From an uncultured Myroides sp. (GTDB lineage Bacteria; Bacteroidota; Bacteroidia; Flavobacteriales; Flavobacteriaceae), in contig CAJYTF010000033.1 in NCBI GenBank assembly GCA_913777665.1, positions 27,233 through 91,232 on the forward strand: a stretch of DNA of 64,000 nt, in the 5' to 3' direction. The notes beneath the pieces are model-generated. The model saw nothing but the letters and a program-made list of their open reading frames with translations. It did not search any database and was not told where the DNA came from. Every line of letters begins with the position of its first letter. Within the stretch, counting starts at the first letter, position 1. Both the position numbers and the translations under genes were made by a program. Positions 7,925 through 20,216 of the stretch are shown piece after piece.

Positions 7925-8506
7925 TTACTTTTTACGCAGGAGGTTGCTTTTCATTTTACTGAAAAACTCGGGCGTAACACCAATAAACGATGCTATGTAT
8001 TTTTGTGGCAGGCAGTTAATAATATCGGGATATTTTTGCAGAAATTTTTCGTAACGTTCTTCGGCAGTTAACGCCATTTTATCTAAAATGCGCTGTTGGT
8101 TGGCAATTAAATTGTTTTCGGTAAGTATTCTAAAAAAACGTTCCAATTTTGGAACTTCGGTAAATAATCGTTCTGCATCGCAACGTTGTAAAATAAGTAC
8201 ATCGCAATCTTCCATTACATCAACATATAATACGGCAGGTTTTCCCGTTAGATAACTGTACATGTCGGCAACCCACCAACCTGGTGTTGCAAAACTTAAA
8301 ATGTGTACTGTTCCGTTATCGTCAATAGTGTAACTGCGTAAAATTCCCTTTAAAACAAAATAGGTAAAATGCGCTTCGTCGCCTGGTTTTATTACAATTG
8401 TTTTAGCTTTAAAACTGGCTTTTTCAAAAGCATTAAAAATAATATCTTCTTCTTCTGAAGTTAGCGAAACGTGTTTGGATATATTTTGAAGCAGTAAATT
8501 TTTCAT
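7925..8506 (-). CDS. Crp/Fnr family transcriptional regulator
   Basis: cNMP-binding fold (TIVIKPGDEAHFTYFVLKGILRSY) and HTH (IASFIGVTPEFFSKMKSNLLRKK). The canonical cAMP phosphate-binding cassette Arg-Ser/Thr is not evident. Confidence 0.85.
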   Translation of the reverse strand: MKNLLLQNISKHVSLTSEEEDIIFNAFEKASFKAKTIVIKPGDEAHFTYFVLKGILRSYTIDDNGTVHILSFATPGWWVADMYSYLTGKPAVLYVDVMEDCDVLILQRCDAERLFTEVPKLERFFRILTENNLIANQQRILDKMALTAEERYEKFLQKYPDIINCLPQKYIASFIGVTPEFFSKMKSNLLRKK

Positions 8507-9063: not shown

Positions 9064-10407
9064 ATGAATATTAGAAAAATTATTGTTGGGGCACTTATTT
9101 TTTCTGCATGTACAAGTAACAATTCTAACAAGAATTTATCAAACGCAGAAAAAACAGTAAGGGTTGAGAAGATTATGCTGTTTGGGAAAGATGAAAATGT
9201 GGTACAATTTTATACCGACAATAATTTTGAAACAATTTGGCAAGACAGTTTAAGCAGAAATCAACTGATTTCGGCTATTATTGATAGCAGATACGATGGC
9301 GTTTTGCCCGAAAAATATCCTTTAAAAAAATTAATTGCTGCGCATTTTAACTATAACGTTTTGAGTATTGCTGAACTTCAAAAAGCCGATGTTGCTTTTA
9401 GCGAAAACTTTTTTCGTATTGCAAAACAATTGGCAACAGGTAAGGTAAATCCTAAAAAAATGTATGGCGATTGGGAACCTTACATCCCGGAAAATGATTA
9501 TAAAGCATTATTGAACAAATCGTTGGCAGATCAAAAGGTGTATGATGTTCTAGAAGATATCAAACCTAAAAACGAATTGTACAAGAAATATAAAAAAGCA
9601 TTTGCTAAATATGTACCTGTAATTTCAAAGGATACATTGTCTGCCGAAGGATTACTGCGTAAAAAAGTGTGGGTGAATTTTGAACGAACCAAGTGGTTAG
9701 AACCCGATTTAGGCGAAAATTATGTTTGGATTAATTTGCCGCAATATGATTTACAGGTGGTTGAAAACGGATCGATTACCGATTCGTACAAAGTGATTAT
9801 TGGCAAGAAAGATAGAAGAACACCGATACTTTCATCGGCTTTCAACGGAATCATTGTAAACCCAAAATGGACAGTTCCTCCAACAATTCTTAAGAATGAT
9901 GTAGTGCCAAAAGCATCTGCTAACCGAGGTTATTTCGCATCGAACCGCTTAACTATTTTCGATAAAAAATCAGGGAAACAAGTCAGTCCCGATAATTGGA
10001 ATCCGGCTAATTATTCATCGTATCGTTATGTACAACAAACCGGACGATTAAATTCATTGGGTCAGATAAAATTCGATTTCCCCAACAAACACATGGTTTA
10101 TTTACACGATACCAATAACAGAACACGTTTTGTAGAAAGCAACCGTGCGTTGAGTTCGGGCTGTGTTCGTGTGGAAGATCCTTTTAGACTGGCAGAAAAA
10201 ATATTTAAGATCGAAGGAAAAAATATATCAAAAAGCGAAATTGATACCTTGGCGGTAAAAGAGAAGACTAAAAACTTTAAATTAAACAAAAAAGTAAACG
10301 TCCATCAAGTGTATTTTACAGCCGTAATCAACGATGCCGGCGATGTAAAAATTCTTAACGACGTTTACTCTTTAGATAATAAACTTTATAAAAGATTAAT
10401 TCAATAA
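9064..10407 (+). CDS. L,D-transpeptidase (YcbB/LdtD-like), putative lipoprotein
   Basis: YkuD catalytic motif HMVYLHDTNNRTRFVESNRALSSGCVRVEDP. Confidence 0.88.
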   Translation: MNIRKIIVGALIFSACTSNNSNKNLSNAEKTVRVEKIMLFGKDENVVQFYTDNNFETIWQDSLSRNQLISAIIDSRYDGVLPEKYPLKKLIAAHFNYNVLSIAELQKADVAFSENFFRIAKQLATGKVNPKKMYGDWEPYIPENDYKALLNKSLADQKVYDVLEDIKPKNELYKKYKKAFAKYVPVISKDTLSAEGLLRKKVWVNFERTKWLEPDLGENYVWINLPQYDLQVVENGSITDSYKVIIGKKDRRTPILSSAFNGIIVNPKWTVPPTILKNDVVPKASANRGYFASNRLTIFDKKSGKQVSPDNWNPANYSSYRYVQQTGRLNSLGQIKFDFPNKHMVYLHDTNNRTRFVESNRALSSGCVRVEDPFRLAEKIFKIEGKNISKSEIDTLAVKEKTKNFKLNKKVNVHQVYFTAVINDAGDVKILNDVYSLDNKLYKRLIQ

Positions 10408-11205
10408 ATTAGATGTTGTAAGATAACCTTTTTGGTCTGCATGGTAAATAAACAAACAACTTTCGTTTTTAATAAGGTTAATAATATCATGCGCAACTTC
10501 GTAAGGTAAAGCCGGGCAGCCTAAGCTACGTCCTAAATATCCTTGGTTTTTTCCTAAGTTTTCGTTGGCATAATCGGCAGCATGTATTACAATATCGCGC
10601 TCTCGAGCATTGTTGTTAATACCTGCTTCTAAACCATCTAATCGTAACGATAAACCGTGTTTTCCCATATAGGTTTCGGCAGTGGTATAAAAACCAAGGC
10701 TGCTTTTGTACGATTCGCGTGTGTTAGAAAAATCGTTCGCATATTCCTTTCCGCTGTTTCTACCGTGCGATACTACAGTTTGGTAAAGAATCTCGTGCGA
10801 TTTCATATCAATAACCCACATTCTGCGTTCGGTAGATGATTTGGTAAAATCAATAATTGTAAGGATTTCTTTATTTAGTTTTCCTTGGTCTTTTAGTTTG
10901 TAATAACCTTTAAAAGCCGCTTTAAAGCTTTCCATTTCAGGCTTTTCAAACTTTTTTTCGTCTAAATCTAAATATTCCGATAAAACCAATTTATCAAAAG
11001 CACTTAAATTACTTGTTGTGTTAGATTTTAAATTTGTTTTTGTTACAGCGGCAATTTCTTTCGATTTTATAGTAGAAGATTTTGTAACTACCGTAACTTT
11101 TTTACCATTTCCATTCCCATTGTTATCTCCGTTCGGGTCGTTAATTGTCATTGGTTTGAACGATAATAGACCCACCATCATTATAGGCAATAATTTAAAA
11201 TTCAT
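10396..11205 (-). CDS. Murein L,D-transpeptidase catalytic domain family protein
   Basis: LYQTVVSHGRNSG ... GRSLGCPALPYEVAHDIINLIKNESCLFIYH. Confidence 0.85.
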   Translation of the reverse strand: MNFKLLPIMMVGLLSFKPMTINDPNGDNNGNGNGKKVTVVTKSSTIKSKEIAAVTKTNLKSNTTSNLSAFDKLVLSEYLDLDEKKFEKPEMESFKAAFKGYYKLKDQGKLNKEILTIIDFTKSSTERRMWVIDMKSHEILYQTVVSHGRNSGKEYANDFSNTRESYKSSLGFYTTAETYMGKHGLSLRLDGLEAGINNNARERDIVIHAADYANENLGKNQGYLGRSLGCPALPYEVAHDIINLIKNESCLFIYHADQKGYLTTSNLLN

Positions 11206-14599: not shown

Positions 14600-14637
14600 A
14601 AATAGAAAGTCCTGATTTTGTCAGGACTTTCTATTTT
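14600..14637. terminator. Bidirectional terminator
   Basis: AAATAGAAAGTCCTGATTTTGTCAGGACTTTCTATTTT. Confidence 0.8.
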
Positions 14638-15505
14638 AATGTGCATGTTTTTTCTTTAAAATTCCACCTGCAGTTTCTTTAATTGAACTTGAAAAGATAA
14701 ATGCTTTTTGATCGATCTCATGAATGGCATTCTTCAATTTTCTAACTTCTAAACGAGTAACAACCGTATACACAATATCGGTTTCGGTACTTACTTCAAA
14801 ACTATCTTTCATAAAACCGCGTTCGCCTTTGTAAACGGTAATTCCTTTGCTCATTTCTAACACTAAAAAGGCTTTAACTTCTTCGCTTTTCGATGAAATA
14901 ATGGTAACACCCGTGAATTCTTCAAAGCCTTCCACCACATAATCAATCGTTTTCGATGCAACAAAATAAGTAAGCATCGAATAAAAAGCAGCTTCTAGTC
15001 CAAAGAAAATTCCGGCAATTAAAAAGATCAAAATATTAATTCCCAAGATAATCTCGCTCATAGAAAAACCGACTTTTTTTCCAGTGTAAACTGCCAAAAC
15101 TTCAATTCCGTCTAAGGCAATGCCGCTTTTCATACCAAAACCAACGCCTAATCCAATAAAAAATCCACCGAAAACAGAAACGATTAATTTATCGTGCGAA
15201 ACTTCTGGAAACGGAATAAATAGCAAACAAAGACCTAAAATTATTACCGAAATGATCGATTTTATTGCAAAAGATTTACCTATTAATTTTCCACCCAAAA
15301 GCAAAAACGGGATGTTTAAGGCAACAAAAATTAATGCAATATTTATGTGGTATTTTTTGTATAGAAGCAGTGCGATACCAGTTACACCGCCATCGAAAAA
15401 ATGATTGGGAATAAGCAGACTTTTCAATGCGAAACTAATGCAAAGAATTCCCAAAAGCATGAATAGGTAATCTTTAAAACTGTCTTTCGATAAAATTTTG
15501 TCCAT
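14636..15505 (-). CDS. YitT family membrane protein (DUF2179 C-terminal domain)
   Basis: SLLIPNHFFDGGVTGIALLLY ... IDYVVEGFEEFTGVTIISSK ... GITVYKGERGF. Confidence 0.88.
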   Translation of the reverse strand: MDKILSKDSFKDYLFMLLGILCISFALKSLLIPNHFFDGGVTGIALLLYKKYHINIALIFVALNIPFLLLGGKLIGKSFAIKSIISVIILGLCLLFIPFPEVSHDKLIVSVFGGFFIGLGVGFGMKSGIALDGIEVLAVYTGKKVGFSMSEIILGINILIFLIAGIFFGLEAAFYSMLTYFVASKTIDYVVEGFEEFTGVTIISSKSEEVKAFLVLEMSKGITVYKGERGFMKDSFEVSTETDIVYTVVTRLEVRKLKNAIHEIDQKAFIFSSSIKETAGGILKKKHAH

Positions 15506-15517
15506 TGGTTTAGGTGG

Positions 15518-18178
15518 CTAAAGTAATTGTGATTTTATTAGTTGTAAATTTTCTTGTTTTTTGGCGTTGCGCAATCTTTTGGCAGATTCGGTAAAGTAAC
15601 TGTGTTTTTCAAAGAACGAAATCTGAATTCTGTTCCAAGAATCAATATCGGCTATTTTATTTTCTGCCTTTAGTTCTTCAAAAAGTCCGTTTGATATTTC
15701 TTCAAAATCAGTTCTTCCCAAATAATCCAAATCTGCATCTGCTAAAATCTGTTCCAAATGATTTTTCGGAGTTTGCGGAATTCTCGTTGCCATGATCATT
15801 CCTTTAATCTTTTCGATCTGATTAAAACTGTAACCAAAATCCGGCAAATATTCTTCGGCAAATCCGCACGAAATCAATTCATGTCCGTCTGCTTTTACAA
15901 TAAAGCCCGAATCGTGGAAAAGCGCAGCAACTTTAAGCAATTCAGTGTCTTCGGCACTAATTCCTTCTAATTTTGCATAACGCATGGCAGCATCATAAAC
16001 ATCTAAAATATGGCTGATGTTATGATAATGCAAATGCTTTGGCAACTCTTGCGTTAGCTTGTTTAATATAAATTCTTTTGCCCTTTCTAAATTCACGCTT
16101 TTTTCTTTAATTTCTGCAAAGTACATATTTAGTTGAGAATCTTCCAATTTTTCGGGACGTAATTCTGTACTAAAATTTTTATGAACCAATTGATAGGTGT
16201 ATTCGCTAATGTTTACTTTTCCTACGTGCCCGTTCACTTCCATTTCAGAAGCAATGTTTACTGCAGTTCCCCAAACATCATAAGCGAATTTTTTAATACC
16301 AACGATGCCTGCAACGACTTCGCCGGAATTTATACCAATACGCATTTCAAAATATTCTTTGCCTTCGGTTATGCGTTTTTGTTTGTATTCTTCCATAAAA
16401 TCGCGAATTTCTAACGCAGCATACACCATTTTAATAGCGTGCTTTTCGTCTTTGACAGGTAATCCGCTTACCGCCATGTAGGCATCGCCAATGGTTTTGA
16501 TCTTTTCAATACCGTATTTGCTGATGATTCTATCGAATTCCTTAAAACAATAGTTCAGTTCTTCGATCAATTCGGTAGAAGAAACCTTTTCCGTTAGTTT
16601 GGTGAAATCTTTAAAATCGGTAAAAAGAATGGTAACGCTGTCAAAGAATTTTGATTGTGTTTTACCTTTTTCTTTTAATTCTAACGCAATTTCTTCGGGT
16701 AGGATGTTTAGTAAAAGTGCTTCAGATTTTAATCGTTCTACTTCTAATTTTTCATTTTGAATTTTGATTTCACTCTTTTGAATTTCGATTTCGTTTTTAC
16801 GATTTTCAACCTGAACTTCTAATTCTTGATTGATGTTTTCTATGATGGTTTGTTTTTCTTTTTCTTGATCGAGATTCTGTGCGGTAAGATTTTTTACTTC
16901 CATTAATTTTTCTTCGTTTTCTGTATTGATATACGAAAAATACCATGCAAGATAAGCCGACATTGAAAACGGAATACTGAAAATTGAAAGTGCAAAACCA
17001 ACAAAAGATATCCCTACTAAAACATTGGTAAAGTCGTTTTGGTTATCGCCTAATTCTAAATTTCCGTTCTTAGAGAAAATTGAAAAAGCAATGATAATTA
17101 TTAAAGTGAAAAATAGGGTAAATAAAATACCGCTGGCTAAAATACGTGCGCCTTTTACTTTTTTCAAAATGGCTTTTATTAACAGTATGCTACATTCTAT
17201 ACAAGCAAATGCAAACAAAAAAGGTACAATGGCGCCGCTAGTATCAATACTAAAAAACAGAATAAGAATGGTTATTACAGAAAGTGCCGTAAAAATTTTA
17301 AAGCGCAATTGTTTTTTAGAAAAAAGGGTGTTTACCAAACCGCTTAATGCAAAACCAGACAAACACGTTAAAAACACAATGAATTTATAAACCCACTCTT
17401 CGCCTTTTACATCTGAAACCATTAAAAAGTATGAAATAGATACAAAAACACCACCCATACTAAAGCTGAATAAACTAAAGTATAAGTTAGGTTTAAATTG
17501 GCGGTAAAACAAGAACAATATCAAGTGAAACACGAAAAGCGTCATAAAAACAGAACCAATAATCATGACAATAGAACTGGTTTGGTTTTTTTTCTGTTTT
17601 AAAAGCAGCGCATTTTCTGTTTTAGTGATTCTAAAATCAAAATCAAAAAATGTATCGGTAGCTTTTATTTGGCTGTTTTCGTATTTTATGGCAAAAGTAT
17701 GTTTACCGGGCTTTGTAAAAACAAAATTGGTGTAAGGACGTTTTAGTTCGTTAAATGTAAAAAAAACAATTGTGCCGTTACTGCCATTAGAAAATGCACC
17801 GAAAGTTTTAAGTAGTTTTCCATCTAAATAAATAGAATAAGCACCGGTTAAATCTACCGATAAACTTAAAGGAATGCCCACCAAAGTAGAATCTATTTCA
17901 AATGAATTTCTAAACCAACCCATTTTATTAAAATTCATTTCTTGCTTGATTATGTTGCCTAAACTGTCTGTCTTAATCAAAGTCCAATCATTATCAACTA
18001 AATCAGGATTCTTCCATTTGTCATTGGTTCCATGTTTAAACTTCCATCCGTGTAACAATTTAAAATAGGCTTCTTCATTGGCAATAACTTCTTTGGTATA
18101 TCTTGGCAAAGAATCAGTGGTTTGTGCAAACGAAGTAATACATAGCAAAAGCAGTATAAATGTTATGAACTTTCTCAT
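15518..18178 (-). CDS. 7TM (7TMR-DISM-like) sensor - coiled coil - class III adenylate/guanylate cyclase - C-terminal HD phosphohydrolase-like domain
   Basis: Signal peptide, jelly-roll-like ectodomain, 7 TM and coiled coil. Cyclase motifs VTILFTDFKDFTKL (Asp1), KIKTIGDAYMAVSG (Lys, Asp2), FAYDVWGTAVNIASEME (Arg replaced by Glu). HD motifs HNISHILDV, LFHDSGF, GHELISC, ADADLDYLG. Confidence 0.9.
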   Translation of the reverse strand: MRKFITFILLLLCITSFAQTTDSLPRYTKEVIANEEAYFKLLHGWKFKHGTNDKWKNPDLVDNDWTLIKTDSLGNIIKQEMNFNKMGWFRNSFEIDSTLVGIPLSLSVDLTGAYSIYLDGKLLKTFGAFSNGSNGTIVFFTFNELKRPYTNFVFTKPGKHTFAIKYENSQIKATDTFFDFDFRITKTENALLLKQKKNQTSSIVMIIGSVFMTLFVFHLILFLFYRQFKPNLYFSLFSFSMGGVFVSISYFLMVSDVKGEEWVYKFIVFLTCLSGFALSGLVNTLFSKKQLRFKIFTALSVITILILFFSIDTSGAIVPFLFAFACIECSILLIKAILKKVKGARILASGILFTLFFTLIIIIAFSIFSKNGNLELGDNQNDFTNVLVGISFVGFALSIFSIPFSMSAYLAWYFSYINTENEEKLMEVKNLTAQNLDQEKEKQTIIENINQELEVQVENRKNEIEIQKSEIKIQNEKLEVERLKSEALLLNILPEEIALELKEKGKTQSKFFDSVTILFTDFKDFTKLTEKVSSTELIEELNYCFKEFDRIISKYGIEKIKTIGDAYMAVSGLPVKDEKHAIKMVYAALEIRDFMEEYKQKRITEGKEYFEMRIGINSGEVVAGIVGIKKFAYDVWGTAVNIASEMEVNGHVGKVNISEYTYQLVHKNFSTELRPEKLEDSQLNMYFAEIKEKSVNLERAKEFILNKLTQELPKHLHYHNISHILDVYDAAMRYAKLEGISAEDTELLKVAALFHDSGFIVKADGHELISCGFAEEYLPDFGYSFNQIEKIKGMIMATRIPQTPKNHLEQILADADLDYLGRTDFEEISNGLFEELKAENKIADIDSWNRIQISFFEKHSYFTESAKRLRNAKKQENLQLIKSQLL

Positions 18179-18179
18179 T

Positions 18180-20216
18180 TTAATTTGTTTTAGTTTCTAC
18201 AAAATACATTTTTGCCAAGCCTTTTCCTTTAATTTCCAATTCGCCGCGGTAACTGAAATCGAAAAACTGTTTTGCCAACTCATACGTTGTGTGCCCCACG
18301 TTAATTTTTCCGTTTTCGCTTCGGGCTTTCATGCGGGCAGCAGTGTTTACGGCATCGCCCCAAATATCGTAAGCGAATTTTTTAATACCTACAATTCCTG
18401 CAACAACTTCGCCCGAATTAATTCCAATCTTAATCTCAAAATAAGGCTTGTCTGCTTTTCTTCTTTCTTCTTGATAAGATGTAATGAAATCGCACATTTC
18501 TAACGCCACTTCGATCATTTTTTTTGCGTGATTATCATTTACCAACGGAAGTCCGCTTACTGCCATGTACGAATAACTGATGGTTTTAATTTTTTCGATC
18601 TGATGTTTGGTTGTAATATGATCAAAAGCCTGAAAACAATGGTTCAGTTCGTCTAATAATTCCTGTGAATTCAATCGTTGTGAAACCGAATCCAGATTAG
18701 TGAAATCAGAAAATAAAATAGACACGCTGCTGAATTGTTTTACCTTACTTTCACCACTTTCTTTTAATTCGTCGGCAATATCTTTTGGAAGGATATTTAA
18801 CAGTAAATCTTCTGATTTTTGTTTTTCAGAAAGCAATTCCGTCTGCTGTTTTTCAATTTCTTGTTTTTGAATTTCAATTTCCTTGGTACGTTCTTTAACT
18901 TCGGTTTCAAGAAAACTCATCTTGTTTTCTAAAAGTCCTTTACGTTCTTGTTGCTGCTTTAATGTTTGTGCCGATAGTTGCTTCACTTCTTTTAACTGTT
19001 GATTTAACTTGCGACTTACCGCAGCAAAATTTGAAGCTAAAAACGCCGACATAGCAAATGGAATGCTAAAGAAAGAGAATGTACCTAATATTATTAAAAT
19101 GCTAAGTAAAATAGCGTTCATGGTTTGTGTTGCGTAAAGTATTCCTACAAACATACCAAGTAAAATGGCAAAACCAAAACTGCAAATAAGCCCAAAAGCA
19201 ATGATTTTTGAACCTGGTTTTTTATTAATTGTCGCAATTAGTACAATAATAATTGCTTCGAATAACAAAAGTGTGGTGAAAACAGATCCTACAAAAGAAA
19301 AATCCATAGAAACAACATACATTAAAAACAAAGCAATCCCTACGCAAGCACTTAAAATAATTAGGCGTAATTTGTTTTTACTGAATAGAAAATTTACTGT
19401 GGTACTAATTGCCAAACTACCAATTAATGAAAAAGTAATTGATGTAGGATTGTTGAGCTCTGTAAACTGAATACCGTCGATTCCGGAATGCAGCATTGGA
19501 GCATATCCTAACAGAATACTTAATCCCGAACAAAAATTAAAGATACCAAAAAACAAATTTGCAATGAACTTTCTGTAAAAACCAAACAACATTAAATGTA
19601 TAACACCCAATGTAATAAATATAAAGCCAATGGCAGTAATGGCTAACCATAAATAGTTGTTAAGGTCTGCTTTTTCGCTGTAGTTATCAACAGTTACTAA
19701 AGAGAATTTAAAACCTTTTGGTTGAAATACCGATAATTTTTGATTATGTAAAACATCTTTATAATGAACAGCAAAAACATGTTCTCCAGGTTTGGAAAAG
19801 ATAAAAGTTACCGGTTGGTTTTTAAATTCTTTGGTTTTTTCATCAACCTTGCCAAAGCTCCCTAAATATAAACCGTTTAAGTAAACACCAGCATTTGCTT
19901 TAGAAAACACTAACAACGAAATAGGAACGTTTACTAAAGTAGAATCTACCTGTATTTTTTGTCTGAACCATATTTCACCCTTGTATGCTGAATCATTCAG
20001 ATTAAAAAAAACAGCTGTTTGTGGTTTCCATTCATCATCGTTAAAATCAGTTTCTTTCCATGATGAATTAGTACCAATTTTAGATTTCCAATCTTTTTTC
20101 AGATCAATTCCCTTTTCAAGATCTTGTAAAGAATAGATCTTTTTTGCTTGAATACTGTCCTGTGAAAAACAGATATTCATTACAAGAAACATTAGAAATA
20201 GTAGTATTTTTTTCAC
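18180..20216 (-). CDS. 7TM (7TMR-DISM-like) sensor - coiled coil - class III cyclase-like domain with second metal Asp lost
   Basis: Same architecture as the downstream gene. VSILFSDFTNLDS (Asp1 present), KIKTISYSYMAVSG (GD replaced by SY), FAYDIWGDAVNTAARMK (Asn and Arg present). Confidence 0.9.
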   Translation of the reverse strand: MKKILLFLMFLVMNICFSQDSIQAKKIYSLQDLEKGIDLKKDWKSKIGTNSSWKETDFNDDEWKPQTAVFFNLNDSAYKGEIWFRQKIQVDSTLVNVPISLLVFSKANAGVYLNGLYLGSFGKVDEKTKEFKNQPVTFIFSKPGEHVFAVHYKDVLHNQKLSVFQPKGFKFSLVTVDNYSEKADLNNYLWLAITAIGFIFITLGVIHLMLFGFYRKFIANLFFGIFNFCSGLSILLGYAPMLHSGIDGIQFTELNNPTSITFSLIGSLAISTTVNFLFSKNKLRLIILSACVGIALFLMYVVSMDFSFVGSVFTTLLLFEAIIIVLIATINKKPGSKIIAFGLICSFGFAILLGMFVGILYATQTMNAILLSILIILGTFSFFSIPFAMSAFLASNFAAVSRKLNQQLKEVKQLSAQTLKQQQERKGLLENKMSFLETEVKERTKEIEIQKQEIEKQQTELLSEKQKSEDLLLNILPKDIADELKESGESKVKQFSSVSILFSDFTNLDSVSQRLNSQELLDELNHCFQAFDHITTKHQIEKIKTISYSYMAVSGLPLVNDNHAKKMIEVALEMCDFITSYQEERRKADKPYFEIKIGINSGEVVAGIVGIKKFAYDIWGDAVNTAARMKARSENGKINVGHTTYELAKQFFDFSYRGELEIKGKGLAKMYFVETKTN

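Follow-up and report, generated by a model that had tools for sequence, protein, structure and literature searches.

Bacterial class III cyclases have been stated to require homodimerisation (PMC4821796). In Rv1625c, neither the D300A nor the R376A variant is active by itself, yet the two complement one another (PMC4821796), and the duplication and fusion behind the C1/C2 pseudoheterodimer have been placed in early eukaryotes (review, PMC9552081). The fungal RGC1/NeoR cyclase is an obligate heterodimer, and the catalytic residues are intact in both RGC1 and RGC2 (PMC8815786). No natural heterodimeric bacterial class III cyclase was found in the open literature; subscription papers were outside the scope of the search and the absence is not proof.

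Here, two adjacent genes, A and B, were analysed in the window, i.e. the whole stretch of 64,000 nucleotides of DNA that was studied (Table 1). We propose that A and B are the two subunits of a single membrane adenylyl cyclase that is an obligate heterodimer, with a probability of roughly 0.8; the sequence, its conservation, the loss by face, the selection, the co-occurrence and the operon history are observed, while dimerisation, activity, the cAMP product and the function of the HD domain are all inferred.

Protein A consists of a signal peptide, a jelly-roll-like ectodomain, a 7TM region, a coiled coil, a class III cyclase domain and a C-terminal HD domain, while B has the same layout without the HD domain. 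The Guanylate_cyc family (PF00211, curated cut-off 21.9 bits) was matched with 170.5 bits (E 3.8e-50) in A and 169.3 bits (E 8.6e-50) in B, and by this Pfam criterion both are class III nucleotidyl cyclases. A signal peptide and about seven TM segments were detected in each protein by hydropathy. The family 7TMR-DISM_7TM (PF07695) was matched in A with 30.4 bits against a cut-off of 29, while B gave no significant Pfam 7TM match; for the latter, hydropathy and similarity to A agree with the 7TM receptor type. Both ectodomains are beta-rich. The BetaGal_ABD2 jelly-roll match in B is weak and under its own cut-off, and searches of solved structures put the A ectodomain close to a sugar-binding domain of the GH2 type (6ed1, E 3e-4). 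The HD domain of A (PF01966, residues 721-816) has the H...HD...D metal-ligand motifs present and conserved, and its best match among solved structures was an unspecified HD hydrolase (3ccg) with an E value of 0.014. That this domain is a phosphodiesterase hydrolysing cNMP is guessed from its linkage and its motif, without activity data.

The preliminary description of this DNA had given the reading frames, coordinates and motifs of A and B together with a shared architecture, all of which were recovered; the C-terminal HD domain of A had been overlooked. The single nucleotide that it reported between the stop of B and the start of A is also there, and TAA-1nt-ATG occurs at this junction in 5/5 pair-holding genomes. 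Its use of the matching coiled coils as support for 1:1 assembly could not be kept, because a linker of this kind is also present in homodimeric relatives of the family and the coiled coils are thus uninformative.

Table 1. Features of the A/B locus, with positions numbered along the window.
Feature	Position	Strand	Basis or remark
Gene A	15518..18178	-	886 aa; ORF, Pfam, hydropathy
Gene B	18180..20216	-	678 aa, GTG start; ORF, Pfam, hydropathy
B-A junction nucleotide	18179..18179	-	single base separating the stop of B (18180-18182) from the start of A (18178)
B catalytic domain, residues 492-674	18195..18743	-	Pfam PF00211
A catalytic domain, residues 509-674	16157..16654	-	Pfam PF00211
B 7TM region	19035..19664	-	hydropathy, no significant Pfam match
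A 7TM region (7TMR-DISM_7TM)	16949..17584	-	Pfam PF07695 and hydropathy
A C-terminal HD hydrolase domain, residues 695-885	15524..16096	-	H..HD..D motifs intact
A Asp521, first metal Asp kept (D256)	16616..16618	-	alignment
A Asp565, second metal Asp kept (D300)	16484..16486	-	alignment
A Glu645 replacing transition-state Arg (R376)	16244..16246	-	5/5 A orthologs
A Leu678 at invariant Lys1065-type column	16145..16147	-	loop RPEKLEDSQ in place of RGxxxxKxKG
B Tyr548 replacing second metal Asp (Rv1625c D300), Ser547 for preceding Gly	18573..18575	-	5/5 B orthologs
B Leu508-Asp509 replacing phosphate-loop Phe-Thr	18690..18695	-	other domains: Phe 98/98, Thr 96/98
B Arg628, transition-state Arg kept (Rv1625c R376)	18333..18335	-	alignment
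B Lys663, presumed C2 Lys1065 equivalent, kept	18228..18230	-	alignment and general knowledge
YitT/DUF2179 membrane protein	14636..15505	-	downstream neighbour, conserved with cyclase-HD operon

The two catalytic domains were aligned to six reference positions of Rv1625c (D256, K296, D300, D365, N372 and R376). The motifs read ILFTDF, KTIGDAYM and YDVWGTAVNIASEME in A, and ILFSDF, KTISYSYM and YDIWGDAVNTAARMK in B, and the residues at the six positions are DKDDNE and DKYDNR, respectively. This alignment, suggested earlier, gave the reciprocal substitutions at D300 (in B) and R376 (in A). Residues were assigned to a metal/phosphate face or an acceptor face following established class III structures (mammalian C1/C2 and Rv1625c), and losses were scored where some 95% or more of the remaining catalytic domains share the residue. 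On the metal/phosphate face, B has lost the Phe and Thr of the phosphate loop and the Gly and second Asp of the GD motif, while its acceptor face is without any loss (K544, D617, N624, R628 and K663, the last of which we take to be the equivalent of mammalian C2 Lys1065 from the alignment and general knowledge). B also deviates at two conserved positions not assigned to either face (R596K and E630K). The losses of A concern acceptor-face motifs, namely the Arg (Glu645), the Lys1065-type Lys (Leu678), flanking glycines and the Asp that follows WG, and its metal face is without any loss (D521, F525, T526, G564 and D565). Glu for Arg in A and Tyr for Asp in B were thus correctly described before, while the lost Lys1065-type loop of A and the Phe/Thr and Gly of B had been missed. 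The losses divide between the faces without exception, but they are few (Fisher p 0.015 in B, 0.45 in A and 0.067 for all losses combined), and the main evidential weight is therefore placed on cross-species conservation.

A homodimer would need all six catalytic residues in each chain, which neither A nor B has. The C1/C2-type criterion, complementary loss with one of the two interface sites fully equipped, is fulfilled by A and B: an A:B dimer would have one site with the full residue set, and B Tyr548 and A Glu645 would both fall in the other. The earlier inference that neither homodimer is complete and that A plus B has exactly one complete site is upheld by these residue sets, with the losses on opposite faces. 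In addition, of the two domains of mammalian AC8 and AC5, C1 is the better-scoring one for A and C2 for B. The unused faces are only partly degraded, A keeping the Lys, Asp and Asn and B the first metal Asp, so homodimers may still have weak activity or bind nucleotide. Since the base-specifying positions of B hold Lys and Asp (K544 and D617), ATP is predicted as the substrate, for which there are no product data; by these residues the pair is classed as adenylyl and not guanylyl cyclase. A structure prediction of A residues 480-886 (AlphaFold, four sequences) reached a mean pLDDT of 45.7 and was too poor to use.

In the proposed enzyme, A, as a C1-like subunit, would supply the metal Asps (D521 and D565) and the phosphate loop, while B, as a C2-like subunit, would supply the adenine-specifying Lys and Asp (K544 and D617) together with the Asn, Arg and Lys (N624, R628 and K663), and the two faces would combine into a single complete site for ATP. 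In the mirror site, Tyr548 of B would lie opposite Glu645 of A; this site would be dead and may be a regulatory pocket. Because neither an A/A nor a B/B homodimer would have a complete site, cAMP would be made only once two unlike jelly-roll/7TM receptor halves meet. The HD domain fused to A, whose function is inferred, would probably hydrolyse the cyclase product.

The window genome (2.93 Mb) encodes three class III cyclases, namely A, B and a distant one of 375 aa with different residues aligned at the substrate-specifying positions; among named relatives, Paenimyroides ummariense DS-12 is the nearest (98%). Two draws of the genus were searched (400 and 390 genomes, overlapping to an unknown extent, the window genome not being listed in the second), and the pair-holders were the same in both, i.e. 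the window genome, G130, G334, G022 and G301. These five come from one Paenimyroides-related clade and represent only about four distinct lineages. No further full-length relative was found in 251 genomes spanning 237 genera of the family, and neither a lone A nor a lone B was found in any genome of the genus draws or the family draw. Such a search of Bacteroidota for co-occurring pairs had been called for in the preliminary description, and both substitutions, Arg to Glu in A and Asp to Tyr in B, are kept in all five pair-holding genomes.

For comparison, 108 catalytic domains of about 80 loci in Bacteroidota were used, together with a further 39, taken from 20 loci of the family to which G438 belongs; the set was gathered by similarity, and very degenerate domains are perhaps under-sampled. 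Without the five A and five B domains it held 134 with DKDDNR, two with DKDTNR and one interrupted by a contig end. All six residues are therefore present in 134 of the 136 other complete domains, the remaining two differing only at the Asp365 position, and A-type or B-type reciprocal loss was absent from all 136 compared. Between species, the catalytic domains are 89-97% identical for A and 88-97% for B with omega of 0.03-0.07, being the most conserved part of both proteins with the lowest omega of any domain, while the ectodomains are only 38-64% identical (near-identical window/P. ummariense comparison excluded). No frameshifts or stops were found in A or B in the five genomes. By these alignments the sensors diverge fast and the output halves are held fixed. 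Sequencing error or a strain-specific change was ruled out by the recurrence in 5/5 genomes and the same omega values, and chance or sequencing error is also contradicted by the intact residues of 134 of the 136 other domains. Sequencing error, a change unique to the strain with other signs of decay, and homologous pairs without shared reciprocal substitutions had been named beforehand as results that would refute the heterodimer, and none of these was met.

Between the window genome and P. ummariense (15518-20216 against L078), synonymous divergence was 0.32 and 0.21 in the catalytic domains of A and B, respectively, and lower, 0.01-0.10, in the ectodomain, 7TM or coiled coil. The raised values are a hint of recombination within the catalytic domains.

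Several other explanations of these data were considered. A may be a weak homodimeric enzyme tolerating the missing Arg, with B only an allosteric pseudo-cyclase. Pseudo-enzymes commonly regulate paralogs, and A retains both metal Asps, the Lys, the Asp and the Asn. We nevertheless regard this as improbable, because both the Arg and the C2-type Lys are gone from A, the perfect conservation of the B acceptor face in all species is left unexplained, and R376A inactivates Rv1625c (PMC4821796). Somewhat harder to accept is that neither cyclase domain is catalytic and that both serve the HD hydrolase of A, as the real output, by dimerising or by sensing nucleotides. Such an arrangement would not keep exactly one complete site across two chains while the other degrades, and B is without an HD domain, yet its cyclase domain is constrained as strongly as that of A; in its favour, the HD motifs of A are intact and conserved.

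A third, intact TPR-type cyclase adjoins the pair in G334, which gives some ground for supposing that A or B partners another cyclase of the cell and not its neighbour. This is very doubtful, since the intact third copy is missing from the other pair operons, A and B are always together, and the only other class III cyclase of the window genome (375 aa) differs at the substrate-specifying positions. The least credible explanation is that A and B are relaxed or decaying duplicates heading for loss, as catalytic residues missing in both and the frequency of tandem duplication in this cyclase family might imply. The missing residues are not decay because the catalytic domains are 88-97% identical with omega of 0.03-0.07, and decaying duplicates are ruled out by these omega values and the fixation in 5/5 genomes without frameshifts or stops.

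An HD gene of its own and then a YitT gene come after one to four intact cyclases in G438, G829, G804, G897, G968, G988 and other relatives. G088 has the order cyclase, HD, YitT with TAAATG joining cyclase and HD in one frame. Given the separate HD gene of the relatives and the single frame in G088, A looks like a cyclase-HD fusion, formed plausibly by stop loss, in an operon that still ends with YitT. The cyclase(s)-HD-YitT operon is conserved in Bacteroidota, being seen in the window (14636-18178) and at L085, L122, L218-L222, L231 and L234; near a cyclase in the first comparison set, YitT was present in 31/83 loci and HD in 25/83. In G565 (L143 4163-9760), a class III cyclase and a domain of the same HD family are combined in one protein of 1865 aa, a fusion apparently separate from that in A.

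In the catalytic-domain tree, A forms one clade and B one clade with high support, also without the trait columns. The full-length tree places A and B as sisters (97/97) adjoining a G438 cyclase of the same jelly-roll/7TM type, while with catalytic domains only the sisterhood is undecidable (AU p 0.22). The third cyclase of G334, cyclase C, is intact, of TPR-type with one TM, and lies directly upstream of B (L079 457-2706). Its catalytic domain groups with A and its N-terminus comes from another lineage, so that C looks like a chimera or recombinant. Cyclase C as the parent of A and B was not supported, the full-length tree rejecting an A+B+C clade (AU p 0.001).

Identity between tandem neighbours was 100% in the catalytic domain versus 40% in the receptor at L227, 98% versus 41% at L222 and 97% versus 28% at L221. 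A and B are 52% identical, unlike the near-identical catalytic domains common in intact arrays. Over L227, L222, L221, L125, L121, L122 and L228, neighbouring catalytic domains are up to 94-100% identical with receptors at about 20-55%, a pattern suggestive of output domains evolving in concert within tandem arrays. Tandem duplication alone was ruled out as the cause of the losses, as the tandem arrays compared keep intact sites. We infer that recombination may homogenise the catalytic domains of arrays, that these domains could pair across chains, and that the pair in the Paenimyroides-related clade may have escaped homogenisation and become mutually dependent. Most likely, an ancestral cyclase(s)-HD-YitT operon gave rise to a C1/C2 division of labour between separate chains in bacteria.

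Elsewhere in the window, a CRP-like cNMP-binding protein is encoded at 7925-8506, about 7 kb from the pair, and the genome has nine such proteins; they are possible effectors of A/B, with no evidence linking any of them to the pair. A YkuD and a YkuD_2 gene, different from each other but both of the L,D-transpeptidase type (9064-10407 and 10396-11205), are convergent with a 12-nt overlap.

A wider reading, for which our confidence is lower but still favourable, is that of a natural obligate heterodimer on two receptor chains, with a C1/C2 split evolved independently of eukaryotes, an AND-gate receptor whose one active site would form only when two unlike extracellular sensors pair, and a phosphodiesterase-like HD domain in one subunit. 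If true, A and B would be a natural bacterial division of labour of the C1/C2 type without fusion, a counter-case to published accounts in which bacterial class III cyclases are homodimers and the C1/C2 pseudoheterodimer dates from early eukaryotes (PMC4821796, PMC9552081), and a receptor whose output needs two different sensors. The intact tandem receptor-cyclases of close relatives, often with near-identical catalytic domains, are a plausible starting state, so the route to an obligate heterodimer would be testable stepwise.

Compared with known systems, A and B share with the mammalian transmembrane adenylyl cyclases the metal/phosphate face on one domain and the adenine/Asn/Arg/Lys face on the other, with one live and one degenerate site, as inferred for A and B. 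They differ in being two chains from adjacent genes and not one fused chain, in having jelly-roll and 7TM receptors and not 6TM bundles, in the partial and not complete loss on the unused faces, in the HD hydrolase fused to A, and in their separate origin within a Bacteroidota operon. With Rv1625c/Cya (class IIIa, M. tuberculosis) they share the site type, and the engineered D300A and R376A are the positions lost in B and A, respectively; however, Rv1625c is naturally a homodimer with two equal sites, and its complementing pair was laboratory-made. The Bacteroidota 7TM or TPR class III cyclases (e.g. G438, G088, G829 and G968) have the same operon, domain types and homologous catalytic domain, but keep the six catalytic residues, have HD as a separate gene and often have near-identical neighbouring catalytic domains, against 52% for A and B. 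Fungal RGC1/NeoR and metazoan soluble guanylyl cyclase are obligate heterodimers of class III cyclase chains, as proposed for A and B, but these are eukaryotic and GTP-using, and RGC1/RGC2, unlike A/B, retain all catalytic residues (PMC8815786).
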